This document shows, one piece after another, positions 11,775-24,493 of a stretch of DNA of 64,000 bases. Below the pieces are notes generated by a model. It was not told where the DNA came from. It did not search any database and worked only from the letters and a program-made list of their open reading frames with translations. The stretch spans positions 1 to 64,000 of the forward strand of contig NZ_JAGGJA010000007.1 in the NCBI RefSeq assembly GCF_026229185.1, in the 5' to 3' direction. How positions within the stretch are numbered: position 1 is the stretch's first letter; every line of letters begins with the position of its first letter. The position numbers and the translations under genes are program-made. This DNA is from Fodinibius salsisoli (GTDB lineage: Bacteria > Bacteroidota > Rhodothermia > Balneolales > Balneolaceae).

Positions 11775-13133
11775 GTGCTCTCATATCTAAAATCAGAAAA
11801 GTATAATATTCGTAAAGAGGCCGGTCAGACGCTCAAAGTCGGCCTGCCTGTCATCATTGCGCAGCTTCTGCAAATGTCAATGAATTTTGTGGATACGGTA
11901 ATGGCCGGAAACTTATCGGCACAGGACCTGGCTGCTGTAGCCGTAGGTGGCGCGATCTTTATGCCGTTCATGATGCTCGCGGCGGGAATCCTAATGGCCG
12001 TAACTCCCGTCATCGCCCAGCTTATCGGGGCCCGCAAATTTCGTGAGGTAGGAATCAATGTGCGTCAGGTTCTTTGGCTCAGCCAAATGTTAGCCATTCC
12101 TATTTTTTTCCTGATCAGAAACCTCGAATTTGCAATGGTTTTTCTGGATGTAGAGCCGGCCATCATTCCTATTGCTCAGGGTTACTTAAATGCAATATCA
12201 TGGGGTGTTTTTGCCGTTGCAGGCTATATGGCGCTCCGTTTCTTTAATGAGGGCCTCTCCGCAACCCGGCCCGGCATGTACTTTGCACTACTTGGCGTCT
12301 TCGTAAATATTGCAGGCAACTACATTCTGATGTACGGCAAATTCGGATTGCCCGAACTGGGGGCCCGGGGCTGTGGGTATGCTTCGGCTATTGTCGGTGT
12401 CGTCATGTTTGTTGGAATGCTCCTATTCACCTATAATTATGAATCTTATCAGCGGTTTAACATTTTCGATTCTTTTCGTAAACCGAACTGGCCCTATCTT
12501 AAAGAGCTCTTACAGGTTGGCGTACCTATCGGACTGAGTTCTACCATGGAAGTGAGCATGTTTGCGCTTGTCAGCCTGCTGATGGGATCCATCGGCACCA
12601 TTGCCGTAGCGGGTCATCAAGTTGCCATCAACTTTTCAGCGATGACCTTCATGGTTCCCTTTGGTCTTTCAACGGCTATTACTACACGGGTCGGCAACGC
12701 TATCGGCAAGGGGTCGATCTATGAAGCGCGTCGTCGTGGCTACGTTGGCATTGGCCTGGCCACTCTTTTTATGTGTGTTACCGCCATGATCATGTACCTT
12801 TTCCCAGATCTGATCACCAGTATTTATACCCAGAATGCAGACGTTCAGGAAGTCGCTATCAGCCTTCTGTATATGGCAGCTATTTTTCAAATATCCGACG
12901 GCTTGCAAGTAAGCGGTTATGGTGCTTTACGGGGATTGAAAGATACAACATTGCCCATGGCTGTTAACTTTGTAGCTTACTGGCTGGTAGGGCTGCCTCT
13001 TGGCTACTATCTCGGCCTCGTGCGAGGGATTGGTCCACAGGGGCTTTGGATGGGACTCATAGCCGGACTCACTATTGCCGCTATTCTTCATAACATCCGA
13101 TTTTACAAGCTCACCCGGCGTTCCCAAACATAA
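11775..13133 (+). CDS. MATE-family multidrug/Na+ efflux transporter (NorM type)
   Basis: MATE transporters export cationic or aromatic compounds in exchange for Na+ or H+. The 452-residue length and about twelve hydrophobic helices fit, with family features such as GLPVIIAQLLQMSMNFVDTV near residues 23-42, VTPVIAQLIGA near 80-91, and VPFGLSTAITTRVGNAIG near 297-314. The GTG at 11775 is the only start I see that keeps the full first helix. It lies 103 bases before the polyketide cassette on the same strand and could serve product export, but that is inference. Confidence 0.93.
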   Translation: MLSYLKSEKYNIRKEAGQTLKVGLPVIIAQLLQMSMNFVDTVMAGNLSAQDLAAVAVGGAIFMPFMMLAAGILMAVTPVIAQLIGARKFREVGINVRQVLWLSQMLAIPIFFLIRNLEFAMVFLDVEPAIIPIAQGYLNAISWGVFAVAGYMALRFFNEGLSATRPGMYFALLGVFVNIAGNYILMYGKFGLPELGARGCGYASAIVGVVMFVGMLLFTYNYESYQRFNIFDSFRKPNWPYLKELLQVGVPIGLSSTMEVSMFALVSLLMGSIGTIAVAGHQVAINFSAMTFMVPFGLSTAITTRVGNAIGKGSIYEARRRGYVGIGLATLFMCVTAMIMYLFPDLITSIYTQNADVQEVAISLLYMAAIFQISDGLQVSGYGALRGLKDTTLPMAVNFVAYWLVGLPLGYYLGLVRGIGPQGLWMGLIAGLTIAAILHNIRFYKLTRRSQT

Positions 13134-13236: not shown

Positions 13237-14343
13237 ATGGCGGCCTATATTCACAATATTGCAACCGTTGTTCCTGAACGCTCGTACCGGCAAGATTTTC
13301 TGCGTGAGCAGATGAAAAAATATATTGGCCAGCGAGATATCAGCCGGCACATCATCCATCGGATATATGCCAAGTCAGGCATTAAAAAGCGGCATACGGT
13401 TATTGATGATTTCCGGGCCAACGGAGATCCCAGAGTATTCTTTCAACAGGACGGAAGCCTGTCTACCCCTTCAACAGGGAAGCGAAATCAACTCTATATC
13501 GAAAAGGCTAAACCTCTTTGGGTTAAAACAGCCCGAAAAACAATCGAGGAGAATCCCTCTGTTAACAAAACCGATATTACCCATATTATCACGGTATCAT
13601 GCACTGGTTTTTTTGCTCCGGAGCCAGGCTTTGAAATCATCAAAGAGCTCAATTTATCCTCCTCCACCGAACGTTTCCACCTGGGCTTTATGGGATGTTT
13701 TGCTGCCTTCCCGGCTATGAAAATGGCCCAATCCTTTTGTGCAGCCCAACCCGATGCCAACGTATTAATCGTATGCCTGGAACTTTGTACCCTGCACTTG
13801 CAAAATTCCGAAGCCACCGACCATCTTATTTCGGCCTCTGTATTTGCCGATGGGGCAGCCGGGTTGATCGTCAGTGCCCGACAACCTGTAAAACGAGCAT
13901 TAAAACTTGAACATTTTTCCACAACCATTGCCGAAGAAACGGAGGAAGATATGGCCTGGACGATTGGCGACACTGGCTTTGAAATGGTACTTTCAAGCTA
14001 TGTTCCGGACCTGATTAAATCGAACCTTTCAGACGCTATTCAACCTCTTCTTGAGGCTTACCACATTTCGTTAGCCGACATTAACCGTTGGGCCGTACAT
14101 CCCGGTGGGCGGGCCATCCTTGACAAGGTTCACCAAAGCTGTAACCTTCAGCCTGAGCAGCTTGCAGCTTCAAGAAAGGTACTTGCCAATTATGGAAATA
14201 TGAGCAGTGCAACCATCTTGTTTGTGCTTAAAGAGCTTCTGGATTCCACGGAAGAAAACAATAAAACTACCACATTAGCTTTAGCATTTGGTCCCGGCCT
14301 TACCATCGAAAGTGCACTACTAACAACCACCGATCCTGCGTAG
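13237..14343 (+). CDS. Type III polyketide synthase (chalcone/alkylresorcinol synthase family)
   Basis: Type III synthases extend an acyl-CoA starter with malonyl-CoA and cyclise the chain to a pyrone or resorcinol. I choose the ATG at 13237 (368 residues; MAAYIHNIATVVPERSYRQD is the usual family start) over a TTG at 13189. The catalytic triad is complete: Cys154 in GFMGCFAAF, His288 in WAVHPGGRA, Asn321 in ANYGNMSSA, with spacing close to chalcone synthase. The GFGPG-like loop appears as AFGPGLTIE near the end. It heads a three-gene cassette with a methyltransferase 2 bases downstream. The starter unit is unknown; a fatty acyl chain is likely for a bacterium of this kind. Confidence 0.93.
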   Translation: MAAYIHNIATVVPERSYRQDFLREQMKKYIGQRDISRHIIHRIYAKSGIKKRHTVIDDFRANGDPRVFFQQDGSLSTPSTGKRNQLYIEKAKPLWVKTARKTIEENPSVNKTDITHIITVSCTGFFAPEPGFEIIKELNLSSSTERFHLGFMGCFAAFPAMKMAQSFCAAQPDANVLIVCLELCTLHLQNSEATDHLISASVFADGAAGLIVSARQPVKRALKLEHFSTTIAEETEEDMAWTIGDTGFEMVLSSYVPDLIKSNLSDAIQPLLEAYHISLADINRWAVHPGGRAILDKVHQSCNLQPEQLAASRKVLANYGNMSSATILFVLKELLDSTEENNKTTTLALAFGPGLTIESALLTTTDPA

Positions 14344-14345
14344 TT

Positions 14346-15044
14346 ATGCCTTTTTTCCTTTCCATGCGCGACACGGATAGCACAGAAAAGATGGATCGTC
14401 CGGACTGTGATCACACCGAACTTTGGAATACCTATCGGCAATTTTCTACCATTAATGCTCTTCTCTCTCAATGGAGAAAAATCTATCGAAGCCGGCTTCG
14501 CCCCTACCTTCAAAGCAAAACTCACAGCCATATTTTAGATATCGGTTTTGGCGGAGGAGACATCCCGATAAAACTGGCACAGTGGGCCAATCAGGATAAC
14601 CTCCGGCTTTCCGTTACTGCTATAGATCCCGATGAGCGAGCTTTTAATTTCGCGCAGCAAATAGCCTCTCCCAATAATGTTAAATTTCTACACTGCTCTG
14701 CTGCTGAATTATTAGCTTCTAACCGAAACTACGACTTTGTCATATCGAACCACCTGCTTCACCATTTATCGCCGGATGAACTGCCAAAAGTATTGTCGGA
14801 AGCCAAAGCGTTAAGCAACCACGCAATTATCTTTAATGATATAAAGCGCAGTGATATTGGCTATGCTCTTTTTAATGTCTTAGCGCGTCCGACCTTCCGG
14901 AGTTCATTTATTACCCATGATGGACTCACTTCCATCAAAAAGAGCTATACCCCAGCAGAATTACAGCAAACGGTTCCCAAGGGATGGCAGGTCCAAACCC
15001 TATTCCCTTTCCGGTTACTCTTAACTTATCACCACAATGGATAA
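14346..15044 (+). CDS. Class I SAM-dependent methyltransferase of the polyketide cassette
   Basis: The 232-residue protein shows SAM motif I as ILDIGFGGGDIPIKLAQWA near residues 59-77, an acidic motif II (VTAIDPDE) and SNHLLHHLSPDELPKVL typical of UbiE-like small-molecule methyltransferases. It starts 2 bases after the polyketide synthase and overlaps the monooxygenase by 8 bases, so all three are probably translated from one message. By analogy with SrsB it may methylate a resorcinol ring at carbon or oxygen. A start at 14364 is also possible. Confidence 0.9.
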   Translation: MPFFLSMRDTDSTEKMDRPDCDHTELWNTYRQFSTINALLSQWRKIYRSRLRPYLQSKTHSHILDIGFGGGDIPIKLAQWANQDNLRLSVTAIDPDERAFNFAQQIASPNNVKFLHCSAAELLASNRNYDFVISNHLLHHLSPDELPKVLSEAKALSNHAIIFNDIKRSDIGYALFNVLARPTFRSSFITHDGLTSIKKSYTPAELQQTVPKGWQVQTLFPFRLLLTYHHNG

Positions 15045-16200
15045 CGATTCCAAATATTCGGTTATCATTGTTGGTGGAGGTCCCGTGGGCCTCTTGCTGG
15101 GTGCACTGCTGATTAAAGCTGGTATCTCATGCCGCATTCTTGAACAAAATGCTGCTCCAACCCCTGATTCGCGTTCGTTTGGCATCCATCCCCCTTCTCT
15201 CGAAATTTTAAGCTCCATAGGCCTTGCCAAATCAATGGTCCAGGAGGGGTGTTGTATTCGACGCGGCCATGCGTTTACAAACACACAACCATTGGGAACA
15301 CTTTCTTTTAGTTCCTATCCCAGCCCGTTCAACTTTATACTTTCACTTCCCCAAAACCGTACTGAGCAGTTACTTGAGCAACACCTCCAAAAACTTCGGG
15401 AGAAAGTACTCCTTCGCGGAGCTACAGTAGTTGATATTTCTGAAAAGGGAGGTAAGGTGTTTGTTACCTATCTGAAAGACCAACAACCGGTGACCATCAA
15501 AGCAGATTACCTTGTGGGCTGTGATGGGAAAGAGAGCTTTGTCCGCAAAACGACCGGTATTACCTTTGCGGAAAAGAAGTATCCCGATACGTACGTGATG
15601 GGAGACTTCACTGACACCACTTCATTTGGTAATGACGCTGCAATTTATCTCTGTGATGAGGGAGTCATTGAGTCCTTCCCCCTGCCTGATAATCAGCGCC
15701 GATGGGTAGTAAAAACGAAACATTATATTCTATCAAACCAACGATCTGCTATTGAGGAATCCGTTAGCCAGCGAATCAATCGTAATTTATCACAAACCGA
15801 GCATTCTATGGTCAGCAGTTTTGGTGTTCAACGATGTATAGCCAAGCATATGGTTCGGGGACGAATTATCCTGGCAGGTGATGCTGCCCATGTTGTGAGT
15901 CCCATTGGTGGTCAGGGGATGAACTTGGGATGGCTCGGGGTAGATGATTTGGCTCAATGTCTTCAACAGATTCTCATAAATAAGGCAGATCCTGGAGAAA
16001 TATTAGATTCTTTTGAACGGCGACGAAAAAAAGCGGTAGCTAATGCTGCCCGAAGAAGTGAATTCAATATGCGCCTTGGCCGCAGAGTTACTTATCCTCG
16101 CCTTCGAAATAGGCTGGTTGCAATGATGCTCTCTCCTCCCCTATCAAAATTTATGGCTCAACTATTTGCCATGCGGGGTATCGAGCGGTGGATCACCTGA
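15037..16200 (+). CDS. FAD-dependent aromatic hydroxylase (UbiH/PHBH-like)
   Basis: The 387-residue flavoprotein begins with the FAD-binding GGGPVGLLLGALLIKAG near residues 11-27, has the LVGCDGKESFVRK (DG) motif near 160-172 and the GDAAHVVSPIGGQGMNLG block near 283-300, the three signatures of group A flavin monooxygenases. It probably hydroxylates the phenolic ring made by the upstream polyketide synthase and methyltransferase, as SrsC does to give alkylquinones. It overlaps the methyltransferase gene by 8 bases and ends 3 bases from the convergent kinase gene. Confidence 0.9.
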   Translation: MDNDSKYSVIIVGGGPVGLLLGALLIKAGISCRILEQNAAPTPDSRSFGIHPPSLEILSSIGLAKSMVQEGCCIRRGHAFTNTQPLGTLSFSSYPSPFNFILSLPQNRTEQLLEQHLQKLREKVLLRGATVVDISEKGGKVFVTYLKDQQPVTIKADYLVGCDGKESFVRKTTGITFAEKKYPDTYVMGDFTDTTSFGNDAAIYLCDEGVIESFPLPDNQRRWVVKTKHYILSNQRSAIEESVSQRINRNLSQTEHSMVSSFGVQRCIAKHMVRGRIILAGDAAHVVSPIGGQGMNLGWLGVDDLAQCLQQILINKADPGEILDSFERRRKKAVANAARRSEFNMRLGRRVTYPRLRNRLVAMMLSPPLSKFMAQLFAMRGIERWIT

Positions 16201-16203
16201 CCC

Positions 16204-17373
16204 TCAACGACTAAACCGCAACGAATATCGTGTTCCGTTTTCTGTACTCACGTTGATGGAGCCCTCAAGCCGATCGGCTAACGCTTTTATAACCCAGCAC
16301 CCTATAGAATCCTCCTTACCTATAGCAAAGTTATTTCCGATTCCTTTCCCATTATCTGAGACAACAATTTCAATATTTTCTTCCTGGTCTTCAGAAATAA
16401 GAATTTTTATCTCTCCCTGCTGCATAGAACTAAAGGCGTGCTTGTAAGCATTTAAAATAAGCTCATTCATGATGAGACCACAGGTCATAGCCTTATCTGC
16501 CTCTATCTCCTGGATGTCATCGGCTTCGATGGAGATACATATCGTTTCTTCATTATTCGAAAATGTATCTATAATCTTGTGAGTCAGATTGCGAAAATAA
16601 TTGGCTAAATCCACACTTTTCTTAGTGCCAAGCTGATAAAGCAAGCTATGTACCTGGGTAATGGATTGTATACGTGAACTTGTCCGCTGTAATGTATCAA
16701 TAGCATTCTGGTCGCTAATTTCTGAAAGGTCTACTTCTATAAGTGAAGTAATAGTGGAAAGGTTATTTTTTAACCGATGATGAATTTCTGTCATCAATAA
16801 CTCATCTTCCCGGAGCCTGGATTCTAATTCATTAGCTTGTTCAATACTTTCGATAACACAGGCAACATGTTGGGCAAGCAGTTTTACAAGTCTAATAGAT
16901 TCTTCATTTAATGCATTGCTCTCGCGAAGACTTACTACCTGCAATATCCCGACGATATTACCCTTGCCACTTTTTAATGGCAAACATATTGCTTGCTGGA
17001 TTTTCTCGTCTATCTCTTTTACCAGAAAAGAGGCTTGAACATCCTTATCGAACGTGAATGGTTTTCCCGTAGCCAATACTTTTTCTGCAAGAGCCTTCTG
17101 TTTTGACCATGATAGACCAATCTCACCATCTTTTTTTATCTTCGACAAAGGTGGTGACCTAAACACTCCTTTATTGCGATCGATTAATATCAGATTCGCA
17201 AATTCAGCAGTTACAATTGACTTTACTGTTTTAATACTTTCATCAACAACAGAAGCAATGGTTTCGCAGCGACTGATTTTATTCATCCTTTTGACAAGGA
17301 TTTCCATCCGTTCGCTTTCACTCGCCTCCGTAGATATACCTTGTGTATCTTCTTTTTGCTCTAACTCAAACAT
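16204..17373 (-). CDS. GAF-domain sensor histidine kinase, HisKA_2 type
   Basis: The 389-residue protein has no membrane segment. A GAF-like domain occupies about residues 30-190, then a HisKA_2 dimerisation part with the acceptor His in MTEIHHRLKNNLSTITSL near residue 197, and an ATPase part with NELILNAYKHAF and VVSDNGKGIGNNFA. This MTEIHHRLKNNL form belongs to the HisKA_2 group. It is a cytoplasmic sensor with no partner regulator next to it; the nearest lone receiver is at 46.1 kb. Its end almost touches the polyketide cassette, but the genes converge. Confidence 0.9.
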   Translation of the reverse strand: MFELEQKEDTQGISTEASESERMEILVKRMNKISRCETIASVVDESIKTVKSIVTAEFANLILIDRNKGVFRSPPLSKIKKDGEIGLSWSKQKALAEKVLATGKPFTFDKDVQASFLVKEIDEKIQQAICLPLKSGKGNIVGILQVVSLRESNALNEESIRLVKLLAQHVACVIESIEQANELESRLREDELLMTEIHHRLKNNLSTITSLIEVDLSEISDQNAIDTLQRTSSRIQSITQVHSLLYQLGTKKSVDLANYFRNLTHKIIDTFSNNEETICISIEADDIQEIEADKAMTCGLIMNELILNAYKHAFSSMQQGEIKILISEDQEENIEIVVSDNGKGIGNNFAIGKEDSIGCWVIKALADRLEGSINVSTENGTRYSLRFSR

Positions 17374-20404: not shown

Positions 20405-21304
20405 TTATTCTTCCTTTCCCTTCGCTTCTTCGCAGGGCATCAAGTTATCCTGCGCATCATAACAATTTTTGATGGGCACTTCCCTTTTTGCTATTCCTGC
20501 TACAACCCCGGTTCCATTCTCTATGTTGGATACAACATCCGGCAACTGCATTTCTTGCTCACTTAGATCGGTAAGGTCCGGCCAATCGTTACTGCCTGCC
20601 GCTATATGCAGCTCTCTTTTGTTAATTATAAAAGCATCATAGCCTGTTTCACCTGCGATTGCGCTTCTTTCATTAAATATCAACCGAAAGTCTTCACTAT
20701 TGGGATCTTCATATAAAATATCCAGATATGAGATACTCACTTTTACTTCGGGCCCTAAATCACCGAGAAATTCACGAATTTCTTGCACATGAAAAACAAC
20801 ATCTGCCATCACCAGCGGTTCCGAGGTCGATCCGTTAACCTTTACCTCTCCGCCCTCCTCGGAATACGTAACTAAAGGTAAAGGTAACTTTGATGGGGTT
20901 GTTACCGTAACACTACTTTTTTGCCCCTCTGCTCCCACTGCTTCAACAATATACTCTTCCTTGGGATATATTTTTTCTGTCGTCCAATAATTCCAAACGT
21001 AAGCATCTCCGCCAAAGACAAAAAGAGAGTCGTTAAGCTGAAGGGTCTTCCCAGTGCTTTTGCGTGTTAACGTCACCTCTGTATTATTGGAATCAGGCTT
21101 TGATGGGATGAGCTTTCCATGAATGGGCATCACCCTAACCCACTGTGTGTCTGCATGGACATCCAGCGTGCCATATATTGAATAGGTATATTGATCATTT
21201 TCCTGCAAGGGGTCGAAATTGCTTTCACACCCTGCAATCTGTATCAGAAAGCCTATCATTAATATTGCCAACAGTCCATCTATTCTGCTCATACCATTCA
21301 TCAT
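20405..21304 (-). CDS. DUF4249-like lipoprotein, copy A of a tandem pair
   Basis: The 299-residue protein carries a lipoprotein signal with Cys in LIQIAGCESNF. Its first 130 mature residues closely match copy B just upstream in transcription order (for example YGTLDVHADTQWVRVMPIH against YGTLDVYADTQWVRVTPIH), while the second half has diverged. Such lipoproteins accompany TonB receptors in Bacteroidota and probably sit at the outer surface as substrate-binding partners. It is the third gene of a receptor-lipoprotein-lipoprotein operon. Substrate unknown. DUF4249 membership is inferred from layout and fold-like pattern, more firmly for the paralogue at 50.3 kb. Confidence 0.78.
   Translation of the reverse strand: MMNGMSRIDGLLAILMIGFLIQIAGCESNFDPLQENDQYTYSIYGTLDVHADTQWVRVMPIHGKLIPSKPDSNNTEVTLTRKSTGKTLQLNDSLFVFGGDAYVWNYWTTEKIYPKEEYIVEAVGAEGQKSSVTVTTPSKLPLPLVTYSEEGGEVKVNGSTSEPLVMADVVFHVQEIREFLGDLGPEVKVSISYLDILYEDPNSEDFRLIFNERSAIAGETGYDAFIINKRELHIAAGSNDWPDLTDLSEQEMQLPDVVSNIENGTGVVAGIAKREVPIKNCYDAQDNLMPCEEAKGKEE
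20975..21025. repeat. 51-base direct repeat, copy 1 (inside lipoprotein A)
   Basis: This stretch is identical, base for base over 51 positions, to 21908-21958 in lipoprotein B. It encodes the shared FVFGGDAYVWNYWTTE segment and reflects a recent tandem duplication or gene conversion. Confidence 0.9.
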
Positions 21305-21346
21305 AATATTTGATTCTACTTAAGAAACGTTACGACCACTATTAGC

Positions 21347-22225
21347 TTACTCTTTGGTCAGCACTTCACAAAAAATCAGATCCCCCCTATCATCATAACA
21401 ACTTCTCAAAAACCCTTTCCGCTGAGCCATCCCAGCCACATGCCCTACTCCCATTTCGATATTTGAACCAACACCAGGAGACATAATTTCTTCTTCGCTT
21501 AAATCAGTAAGGGAGAGCCAGCTTTCGCTGCCCGTGGCTACATACAGTTCTCTTTTATTTATTTGATACCTTTTATTGTGGCCTATTTCGTCTAAAATCA
21601 ATTCTTCTCCATCAAACTCAGCAAGATAAACTCCATCCGAAGTTCTGTTTATTTCTTCGAGAAGAGAAGAAACGACTTCAAGCTCCTCGGTAAGGGTTCC
21701 GACCTCTGTAATTATCTGTATAGAATATTTGATATCCATCCTTACCAAGGGACTACCACTTGATCCCTTGATCTCCCCTCTATTCTCCTCAACAGAATAC
21801 TTTACCAAAGGCAACGACAACGAATCCGGAACGGTAAGCTGAGCGCTACTATAAAGACCGTTAGCGCCCTCTGCCTCTATCACATATTCTTCCTTGGGAT
21901 GGATCTCTTCTGTCGTCCAATAATTCCAAACGTAAGCATCTCCGCCAAAGACAAAAAGGGAATCGTTTAGCTGAACGGTCTTACCGGTACTTGTCTGGGT
22001 TAAAGTGACTTTAGTATTGTTAGAATCGACTTTAGATGAAATGAATGTATCATGGATGGGGGTCACCCGCACCCATTGGGTATCTGCATATACATCCAGC
22101 GTACCATAAACCGAATAGGCATACTGGTCATTTTCCTGCAAGGGTTCAAAGTTACTTTCACACCCTGCAATTGGGATCAGAAAGCCTATCATTAATATTG
22201 CCAAAAATCCCTCCTTGCTATTCAT
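21347..22225 (-). CDS. DUF4249-like lipoprotein, copy B of a tandem pair
   Basis: The 292-residue lipoprotein (signal MNSKEGFLAILMIGFLIPIA, lipid Cys in AGCESNF) is the near twin of copy A through its N-terminal half; the C-terminal halves differ strongly apart from matching blocks near the end (INKRELYVATGSESWLSLTD and GVGHVAGMAQRK). The gene is 12 bases after the TonB receptor and 42 bases before copy A, so it is probably cotranscribed. The pattern suggests duplication followed by divergence of a ligand-contacting C-terminal part; the ligand is unknown. Confidence 0.78.
   Translation of the reverse strand: MNSKEGFLAILMIGFLIPIAGCESNFEPLQENDQYAYSVYGTLDVYADTQWVRVTPIHDTFISSKVDSNNTKVTLTQTSTGKTVQLNDSLFVFGGDAYVWNYWTTEEIHPKEEYVIEAEGANGLYSSAQLTVPDSLSLPLVKYSVEENRGEIKGSSGSPLVRMDIKYSIQIITEVGTLTEELEVVSSLLEEINRTSDGVYLAEFDGEELILDEIGHNKRYQINKRELYVATGSESWLSLTDLSEEEIMSPGVGSNIEMGVGHVAGMAQRKGFLRSCYDDRGDLIFCEVLTKE
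21908..21958. repeat. 51-base direct repeat, copy 2 (inside lipoprotein B)
   Basis: Identical to 20975-21025 in the same orientation, 933 bases apart. Recombination between the two would fuse lipoproteins A and B into one gene. Confidence 0.9.
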
Positions 22226-22237
22226 ACCCTTCCTCCA

Positions 22238-24493
22238 TCACATTGATTCTATTTTTAAAGAGACATAAGGCATAAACGAAAGCTGATTAATACCCTGCTG
22301 TTTGTAGACATCGTAGAAAAACAAGTTGCGCTTGTCATACGCATTGACCGCGCCAATCTGCAATCGCGTTATAAAATCATCGGATACTTTAATGGCCTGT
22401 TCCAGCGAAACATCAAGTCGATGAAACTCTGGCAACCGACCCTGAAAAGGTTTTTCCATGAGTATTCTTGGATCTCCGTAATCATCTCTAATTTCTGGTG
22501 GACGTTCCTCGAAACTAAAATAACTGTCAAATCCCAGAGGACGAGTGAAGGGTAAACCGGAACCATAGATCCAACTTACATTGGCCGTAAACCCTTTATA
22601 GTCAAAGCCGCCCTTTACATTAAGCTTGTGTCGCCGATCATGGGGAGGGTTATAACTTTGGACCGGGGTCCCAAACCATGTACTAAAATGGTCCTGTGCA
22701 GTTTCATATTCTGTCAGTGCATACCCATAGCCTACGCCGAAATAAACGTTTTGGCTGTCAAAGTCCAACCGTATATCCGTGCCCATGGACGAACCTTTGG
22801 CATACGCAAGCTCCGTTTGGGATTGAGCAACCGTACTCCAGGCTGCCACCGGAATATTATCCATCTGCTTATAGTATCCTTCAACAGAAAAATCAAAATA
22901 GCGCCCTATTGGTTGATGCCAACCTAAAATAGCATGTTTAGCTCCCATCCTTCGTTCTTGATCGGGCATAATCCTCCATGCTGTAAAAGCCGTTCCAGCA
23001 TCGCGGAAATCGGAAATACCAACCAATGGCTGATGATAAATTCCAAGAGCAACGTTAACCTCTTCGTTAACTTTACCCCTTGGGCGCCATGACATTTGGA
23101 ACCTGGGTTCTATACCAGCTTTTACCTTACCAAGGTAGGAGCTTGCAGAAACACCCGGCACAATAGATACCTTATTTCCAAAGGGGATAGTCGCTTTGAC
23201 ATACAAACCTGTACTTAAAAATGTTCTCTTTTTTTCTTCCGTGGCTCTAAATCGACTGGACATATCATGATGGAGGTTTCTAAAATCAGTATAGAACCCA
23301 TAGTCCAACCTGACCTCCCCAAGGTTCTGCACTAGGCTGATATCAACATCAGACTTGAAAATATTGGAAAAACGCCCACGTGTATCCGCACTCCCAGCCT
23401 CATTTGAAAAATATGAAAATCCCACATTCAAATCGAAAAAAGATACAGACGACTCTTCGGAGACCCCGGCACAGCGCCCGCCGGCTACTACATTATTCCA
23501 CTTAAAAAACTCATCCCCTTCAAAGTCAAGCCTGCCCCTGTCATAAGTCCGCATTAAAAGCGCTGAACAATTTACATTTTCCCCTACACTACTGTATTTC
23601 GCAAGTTGACTATTAAAGCGAAGAGGCTGCTTCTCATCCAAATACAGCTGACTGGACTCCTCAATTAATGATCCTTTCATGGAGATCATCAGCGAGCTTT
23701 TCCCCTCTTTAACGGGAGTTTCAAAAAAGACATCTGATACAAACGGGCTTATGGAGGCCGACCATTTATAGTCATATAGGTTGCCATTTTTGAGCTGTAT
23801 ATCCATTACTGAAGACGTGCGGCCATGATACTCAGCGCCAAACCCTCCCGCATATAAATCAACTTTTGAGACCACCTCTTCCGGAAAGATCGAAAAGAAG
23901 CCTAAGATGTGGAAAGGTTGATAAATCTGGACCCCATCCACCAGAACCAAATTTTCGGTGGGTGTCCCTCCTCTTATAAATAGCTGTCCCCCCCGATCTC
24001 CGGTAGCAACTACTCCCGGCTGTGTTTGTAAATAGCTGGCCAAGTCTCCACTGGCGGCAGGGCTTGGGATACGTCCCAAATCTTCTGGCCGAATGCTTAC
24101 TTTGCCGACTTCTACATTTTCCTGAACACCCGAAACTGTTACTTCATCTAAACTTTCATTCCAACGGTTCAGACGTATGTTTTTTAAGTAGCTACGATTA
24201 CTTGCAAGCCGAAGGGTATCCGTATAGGTTTCATAACCGACATATCGAACGGTAAAAAGGTATGTTCCAGGTGTTAACCCACCCATTTCGTACAAACCAT
24301 TGGTATCCGTTGTGGTACCCGTTGTCAGCGTTTTGCCTTCCAACTGTTTCAAAATAATATTTGCCATCTCAAGGCTATTTCCTGTTTGGCGATCACTAAT
24401 GATGCCATGTACCTGAACCTCTTGTGCCCTGAGAATGGGTATAAACACGCAACATAAAAACACCCCACACAAAACTTTTTTATAATCCATCAC
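22238..24493 (-). CDS. TonB-dependent outer-membrane receptor with carboxypeptidase-like N-terminal domain
   Basis: The 751-residue protein has a signal peptide (ending near LRAQ, residue 23), a CarboxypepD_reg-like domain at about 25-110 (VHGIISDRQTGNSLEMANI), a TonB plug at about 125-235 with GGQLFIRGGTPTENLVLVDG, and a C-terminal beta barrel. These receptors import large or scarce nutrients across the outer membrane using TonB energy. Two lipoproteins follow in the same operon. It is somewhat shorter than SusC proteins and lacks SusD, so it is not a classical Sus system. The substrate cannot be told from sequence. Confidence 0.92.
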   Translation of the reverse strand: MMDYKKVLCGVFLCCVFIPILRAQEVQVHGIISDRQTGNSLEMANIILKQLEGKTLTTGTTTDTNGLYEMGGLTPGTYLFTVRYVGYETYTDTLRLASNRSYLKNIRLNRWNESLDEVTVSGVQENVEVGKVSIRPEDLGRIPSPAASGDLASYLQTQPGVVATGDRGGQLFIRGGTPTENLVLVDGVQIYQPFHILGFFSIFPEEVVSKVDLYAGGFGAEYHGRTSSVMDIQLKNGNLYDYKWSASISPFVSDVFFETPVKEGKSSLMISMKGSLIEESSQLYLDEKQPLRFNSQLAKYSSVGENVNCSALLMRTYDRGRLDFEGDEFFKWNNVVAGGRCAGVSEESSVSFFDLNVGFSYFSNEAGSADTRGRFSNIFKSDVDISLVQNLGEVRLDYGFYTDFRNLHHDMSSRFRATEEKKRTFLSTGLYVKATIPFGNKVSIVPGVSASSYLGKVKAGIEPRFQMSWRPRGKVNEEVNVALGIYHQPLVGISDFRDAGTAFTAWRIMPDQERRMGAKHAILGWHQPIGRYFDFSVEGYYKQMDNIPVAAWSTVAQSQTELAYAKGSSMGTDIRLDFDSQNVYFGVGYGYALTEYETAQDHFSTWFGTPVQSYNPPHDRRHKLNVKGGFDYKGFTANVSWIYGSGLPFTRPLGFDSYFSFEERPPEIRDDYGDPRILMEKPFQGRLPEFHRLDVSLEQAIKVSDDFITRLQIGAVNAYDKRNLFFYDVYKQQGINQLSFMPYVSLKIESM

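Follow-up and report, generated by a model that had tools for sequence, protein, structure and literature searches.

A three-gene operon in the window (the whole 64,000-nucleotide stretch analyzed here, from Fodinibius salsisoli, a salt-loving member of the Balneolaceae) probably directs the synthesis of a phenolic lipid, which would most likely be a methylated alkyl-hydroquinone or alkyl-benzoquinone of the "polyketide quinone" kind. It encodes a type III polyketide synthase (PKS), a class I methyltransferase (MT), and a flavin monooxygenase (FMO), and it is the hydroxylase-bearing form, hereafter form A, of a widespread module composed of a PKS, a PRK06202-type methyltransferase, and a flavoprotein. 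The genes of the locus are as follows:

11775–13133, + strand: MATE-family exporter gene, upstream of the trio and on the same strand (MatE, 233 bits in Pfam)
13237–14343, + strand: type III PKS, 368 aa, with Cys154–His288–Asn321, Trp241, and a second thiol, Cys122
14346–15044, + strand: class I SAM-dependent MT, 232 aa, NF004851/PRK06202 family, with the SAM motif LDIGFGGGD
15037–16200, + strand: group A FMO (FAD_binding_3, PHBH-like), 387 aa, with GxGxxG, DG, and GD motifs
16204–17373, − strand: histidine kinase (GAF + HisKA_2), in convergent orientation to the operon and 3 bases from the end of the FMO gene

The coordinates of the open reading frames confirm what a sequence-only reading of this region had described: three genes within 3 kb, with a gap of 2 bases between PKS and MT and an overlap of 8 bases between MT and FMO, and a MATE exporter just upstream, whose gene stops 103 bases short of the ATG of the PKS. 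The mechanical reading frame of the PKS opens at a TTG (13189), and the ATG at 13237 is the start found in relatives. The histidine kinase gene has an identical position in most Fodinibius genomes; its identity among them is 31–43%, versus 52–92% for its neighbors, which suggests that it is fast evolving.

The second and third genes belong to the families first assigned to them, SAM methyltransferases and group A flavin monooxygenases. Pfam and NCBIfam concur on the family assignments, and the folds of the three proteins are evident from their sequences. The MT matches Methyltransf_25 in Pfam (54 bits) and, in NCBIfam, NF004851/PRK06202 (294.6 bits, cut-off 243), a family without assigned function. 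Class I families and NF004851/PRK06202 were its only matches in the two databases, with none to the isoprenylcysteine carboxyl methyltransferases (ICMT, PF04140); as a control, PF04140 gives 93.7 bits for a Nitrobacter methyltransferase encoded beside a PKS. Similarly, a search of the genome for ICMT-like genes returned one weak match only (30.5 bits), away from the operon. The FMO matches FAD_binding_3 (197 bits in Pfam) and carries GxGxxG at residue 13, DGKESFVR at residue 163, and GDAAH at residue 281, and it is presumed from these features to be an aromatic-ring hydroxylase.

The PKS is, as had been proposed, a complete type III synthase. PF00195 and PF02797 both match above cut-off (Chal_sti_synt_N/C, 73/109 bits in Pfam), and Cys154, His288, and Asn321, which align with the catalytic triad, hardly vary among 152 homologues. 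A grouping with β-ketoacyl-ACP synthase III (KAS III), which the same reading had named as the finding that would speak against it, was rejected by models and tree alike: the FabH models give 59 bits against a cut-off of 249, and the FabH proteins of relatives sit on a separate long branch. The solved structures that score best against the PKS are Ectocarpus PKS1 (4b0n) and Mycobacterium tuberculosis PKS18 (1ted), both of which have long-acyl tunnels. In the alignment, Cys184 corresponds to the PKS18 tunnel residue Cys205 and Ala127 to Ala148, where RppA has Met, while Leu188 differs from PKS18 Ala209 at the matching position; the tunnel positions resemble those of PKS18 in part. ArsB and ArsC of Azotobacter are likewise type III synthases with an acyl tunnel. 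To our knowledge, neither ArsB/ArsC nor PKS18 forms part of such a PKS–methyltransferase–flavoprotein trio.

The residue most informative on ring type is Trp241, which aligns with Tyr224 of THNS and Gly256 of CHS. It lies nine residues from Met250, a spacing equal to that of Gly284–Met293 in ArsC and of Gly256–Phe265 in CHS, and on this basis Trp241 corresponds to ArsB Trp281; the assignment was made by register with CHS Gly256/Phe265 and THNS Tyr224. In ArsB, Trp281 favors resorcinol over pyrone (PMC6274091), and the same residue has been used to predict resorcinol formation (PMC9927152). The pyrone maker PKS18, unlike the window PKS and ArsB, has Leu at this position. However, Trp is also present there in PKS11, a pyrone synthase, so the ring type is not settled by this residue. 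The synthase residues are nevertheless consistent with the formation of alkylresorcinols from long acyl chains.

An alternative that has to be considered is that the operon makes alkylpyrones, in which case the PKS would lactonize tri- or tetraketides to long-chain alpha-pyrones, the MT would O-methylate them, and the FMO would hydroxylate them or remain idle. The presence of PKS18 among the best structural relatives and the Trp of PKS11 agree with this hypothesis, and alkylpyrones are also the products of myxobacterial type III PKS clusters (PMC12766979) and of Bacillus enzymes (PMC8086630). We consider it unlikely, however: all 103 form A loci retain Trp241, the close co-inheritance of the form A synthase with an aromatic hydroxylase of group A makes best sense for a phenol, and planctomycete trios with the same kind of methyltransferase made resorcinols (PMC10896814).

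Two forms of the operon were distinguished in a survey of 152 loci with profiles built from alignments of the PKS, MT, and flavoproteins: (i) form A, the window type (103 loci, 98 of them with both MT and FMO nearby), in which the third gene is a group A monooxygenase, and (ii) form B (20 loci), in which it is a geranylgeranyl-reductase-like flavoprotein without the DG motif. Form B is carried by Paludisphaera, Psychrobacter, Falsirhodobacter, Roseomonas, Paenibacillus, and most of the other Bacteroidota families examined. The separation is clean, with the window flavoprotein scoring 665 bits on the form A model versus 31 bits on the form B model, and the synthases of the two forms share only 35–40% identity. 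In a tree of 60 synthases, all form A rows made up one clade (ultrafast bootstrap 100, SH-aLRT 94) with no form B row inside; PKS11 and the ICMT-linked Nitrobacter synthase had a clade of their own (99/94), which does not contain the window PKS. A quicker tree (101 rows, FabH as outgroup) agrees, except that one locus with a weak geranylgeranyl-reductase-like neighbor (L146) falls inside the form A clade. Some synthases in the form A clade, mostly from Verrucomicrobia (L139, L140, L142, L144, and L152), have no detected MT or FMO neighbor; a different tailoring of their products is possible. In addition, L103–L107, from the same class as the window, make up another group of type III PKS that lack trio neighbors, and the quick tree places this group weakly with PKS18.

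A membrane-located phenolic lipid or quinone had been thought unusual for the phylum, which proved wrong at the gene level: the PKS profile finds a match in 36 of 36 sampled genomes of the window's family, all of them scoring below 1e-139, and in 234 of 296 sampled genomes of the GTDB-level phylum, the weakest of which may be KAS III. Conserved linkage in relatives, which had been suggested as a check, was found. In every genome of the genus that was examined, the three genes lie side by side, as they also do across families and phyla, and the linkage of the trio is consequently far beyond chance. Outside the phylum, the linked genes are present in Deinococcus radiodurans, D. proteolyticus, and a Microbacterium plasmid. 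Among the 80 best-scoring of at least 591 relatives confirmed in a genome scan, which give a lower bound for the taxonomic spread, the linked trio was found in many Microbacteriaceae and Micrococcaceae (Arthrobacter, Leifsonia, Cryobacterium, Agromyces, and others), as well as in single assemblies of Kiritimatiellae, Spirochaetes, and other groups. A Microbacterium plasmid copy (L051; NZ_CP072877.1, 98587–101567) is a form A trio that is poorly annotated, with the PKS and FMO split over frames, and is either a decayed copy or the result of a sequencing error. No relative of the PKS turned up in the viral contigs scanned with it, and phage carriage of this gene was rejected on that ground.

The order MATE–PKS–MT–FMO is found throughout the genus and in two more families, and PKS–MT–FMO without MATE in others. 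Within the window's order, three families (f1, f3, and f4) have a MATE gene beside the PKS in the majority of their loci; none was seen beside the trio in the loci examined from f5, f10, Deinococcus, and Actinomycetota. It is possible that the exporter is a member of the system, and its linkage may partly reflect general synteny. The directly upstream position of the MATE gene in most f1, f3, and f4 loci is what supports another hypothesis, namely that the product is a pigment or antimicrobial phenol secreted through the adjacent pump instead of a resident membrane lipid. This appears quite improbable, since the trios that lack MATE indicate that the core pathway does not require the pump, and the occurrence of the synthase in all sampled genomes of the family is unlike that of typical antibiotics.

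The trio had also been said to mirror the Streptomyces srsABC system, as "exactly this gene set". The resemblance stands for the enzyme classes, their linkage, and the alkylresorcinol-type residues. As in srsABC of Streptomyces griseus and pkqABC of M. smegmatis and Streptomyces MNU77, a PKS, a methyltransferase, and a flavin hydroxylase or oxidoreductase share one operon, the synthase is of the Trp281 type, and a chemistry leading from alkylresorcinol to methylated alkylquinone is expected; the FAD hydroxylase encoded by the third gene also has its counterpart in srsABC, in kind, with the motifs of a group A FMO. In Streptomyces and M. smegmatis, such PKS–MT–oxidoreductase operons yield alkylquinones that carry electrons (PMC9927152), and the window trio probably works like srsABC in its activities. 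The identity of the gene set did not hold. SrsB is an ICMT (PMC6669644), and the methyltransferase of a homologous cluster is likewise named ICMT (PMC8779670), whereas the window MT is of class I and of a soluble family (PRK06202); for this reason the trio is not classed as srsABC, and straight homology was rejected for the methyltransferase. A gene-by-gene homologue of the S. griseus operon is thus highly improbable despite the three matching activities and the short operon with the PKS first, because the synthase appears to differ in clade as well, judged by the proxies PKS11 and the plasmid-borne Nitrobacter PKS–ICMT pair, SrsA having been placed with PKS10/PKS11 (PMC8086630).

Adjoining genes for a PKS, a class I methyltransferase, and a FAD enzyme are also found in hidABC (hierridins, Cyanobium) and in the mtr–fdo–type III PKS operon of planctomycetes (Gimesia and others). 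In cyanobacteria, both the hidABC and the hidC–hidA–hidB gene orders exist (PMC8086630), and the latter is the order of the window trio. The characterized hid and planctomycete cases have an alkylresorcinol product, and alkylresorcinols were obtained in C. glutamicum with synthases from planctomycete PKS, methyltransferase, and FAD trios (PMC10896814). Judged by the plasmid-borne locus of Paludisphaera, the planctomycete trio has the same methyltransferase family as the window (27% identical; 260 bits on the shared profile). However, the FAD protein of this proxy is geranylgeranyl-reductase-like, with 14% identity and 56 versus 197 bits on FAD_binding_3, its gene order is MT–FAD–PKS, and its PKS, 35% identical, lies outside the form A clade. 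Together with the other form B proxies, Paludisphaera suggests that the window flavoprotein is not of the HidB/fdo subfamily. The trio sides with planctomycete-type (hid-like) trios by its methyltransferase and not by its flavoprotein.

For the synthesis of a methylated phenolic lipid, the following pathway is proposed. A long-chain acyl starter would be loaded on Cys154 of the PKS and extended by three malonyl units, and a C2–C7 aldol condensation with decarboxylation would then close the ring to give a 5-alkylresorcinol, the product predicted from the class and residues of the synthase. The FMO, to judge from its enzyme class, would hydroxylate the resorcinol ring to an alkyl-trihydroxybenzene, which would be readily oxidized to a hydroxyquinone. 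Finally, the MT would introduce a methyl group, on either O or C, at a position and in an order that are not predictable; the regiochemistry of the methyltransferase differs between the hid and planctomycete cases, and co-expression of the Gimesia methyltransferase and FAD genes led to the addition of one methyl, probably C-linked (PMC10896814). The resulting lipid is probably membrane-resident and could act as a redox carrier, an antioxidant, or an envelope-strengthening lipid. In Balneolaceae, the neighboring MATE pump might conceivably aid lipid traffic.

The open-access literature that was searched contained no report of a form A product. Should that product be a redox-active phenolic lipid, a membrane quinone or phenol would have been overlooked in Balneolaceae and in many common soil-dwelling and radiation-resistant bacteria (Arthrobacter, Microbacterium, and Deinococcus). 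A broader proposal, which we put forward tentatively and with considerable doubt, is that form A is an uncharacterized polyketide-quinone lineage, core to Balneolaceae and common to Deinococcus and Micrococcales, whose product would work alongside menaquinone, as a second quinone or redox lipid of the membrane, under oxygen-poor or saline conditions, the hydroxylase having been recruited independently of srsC. More generally, forms A and B offer a natural experiment in which the flavoprotein is swapped in an otherwise constant pathway, and cluster-similarity labels such as "alkylresorcinol (srs)" can mask different methyltransferases.

Elsewhere in the window, positions 20405–24493 (− strand) contain two lipoprotein genes in tandem that resemble each other (N-terminal ...AGCESNF...); a TonB-dependent-receptor-like gene comes next.
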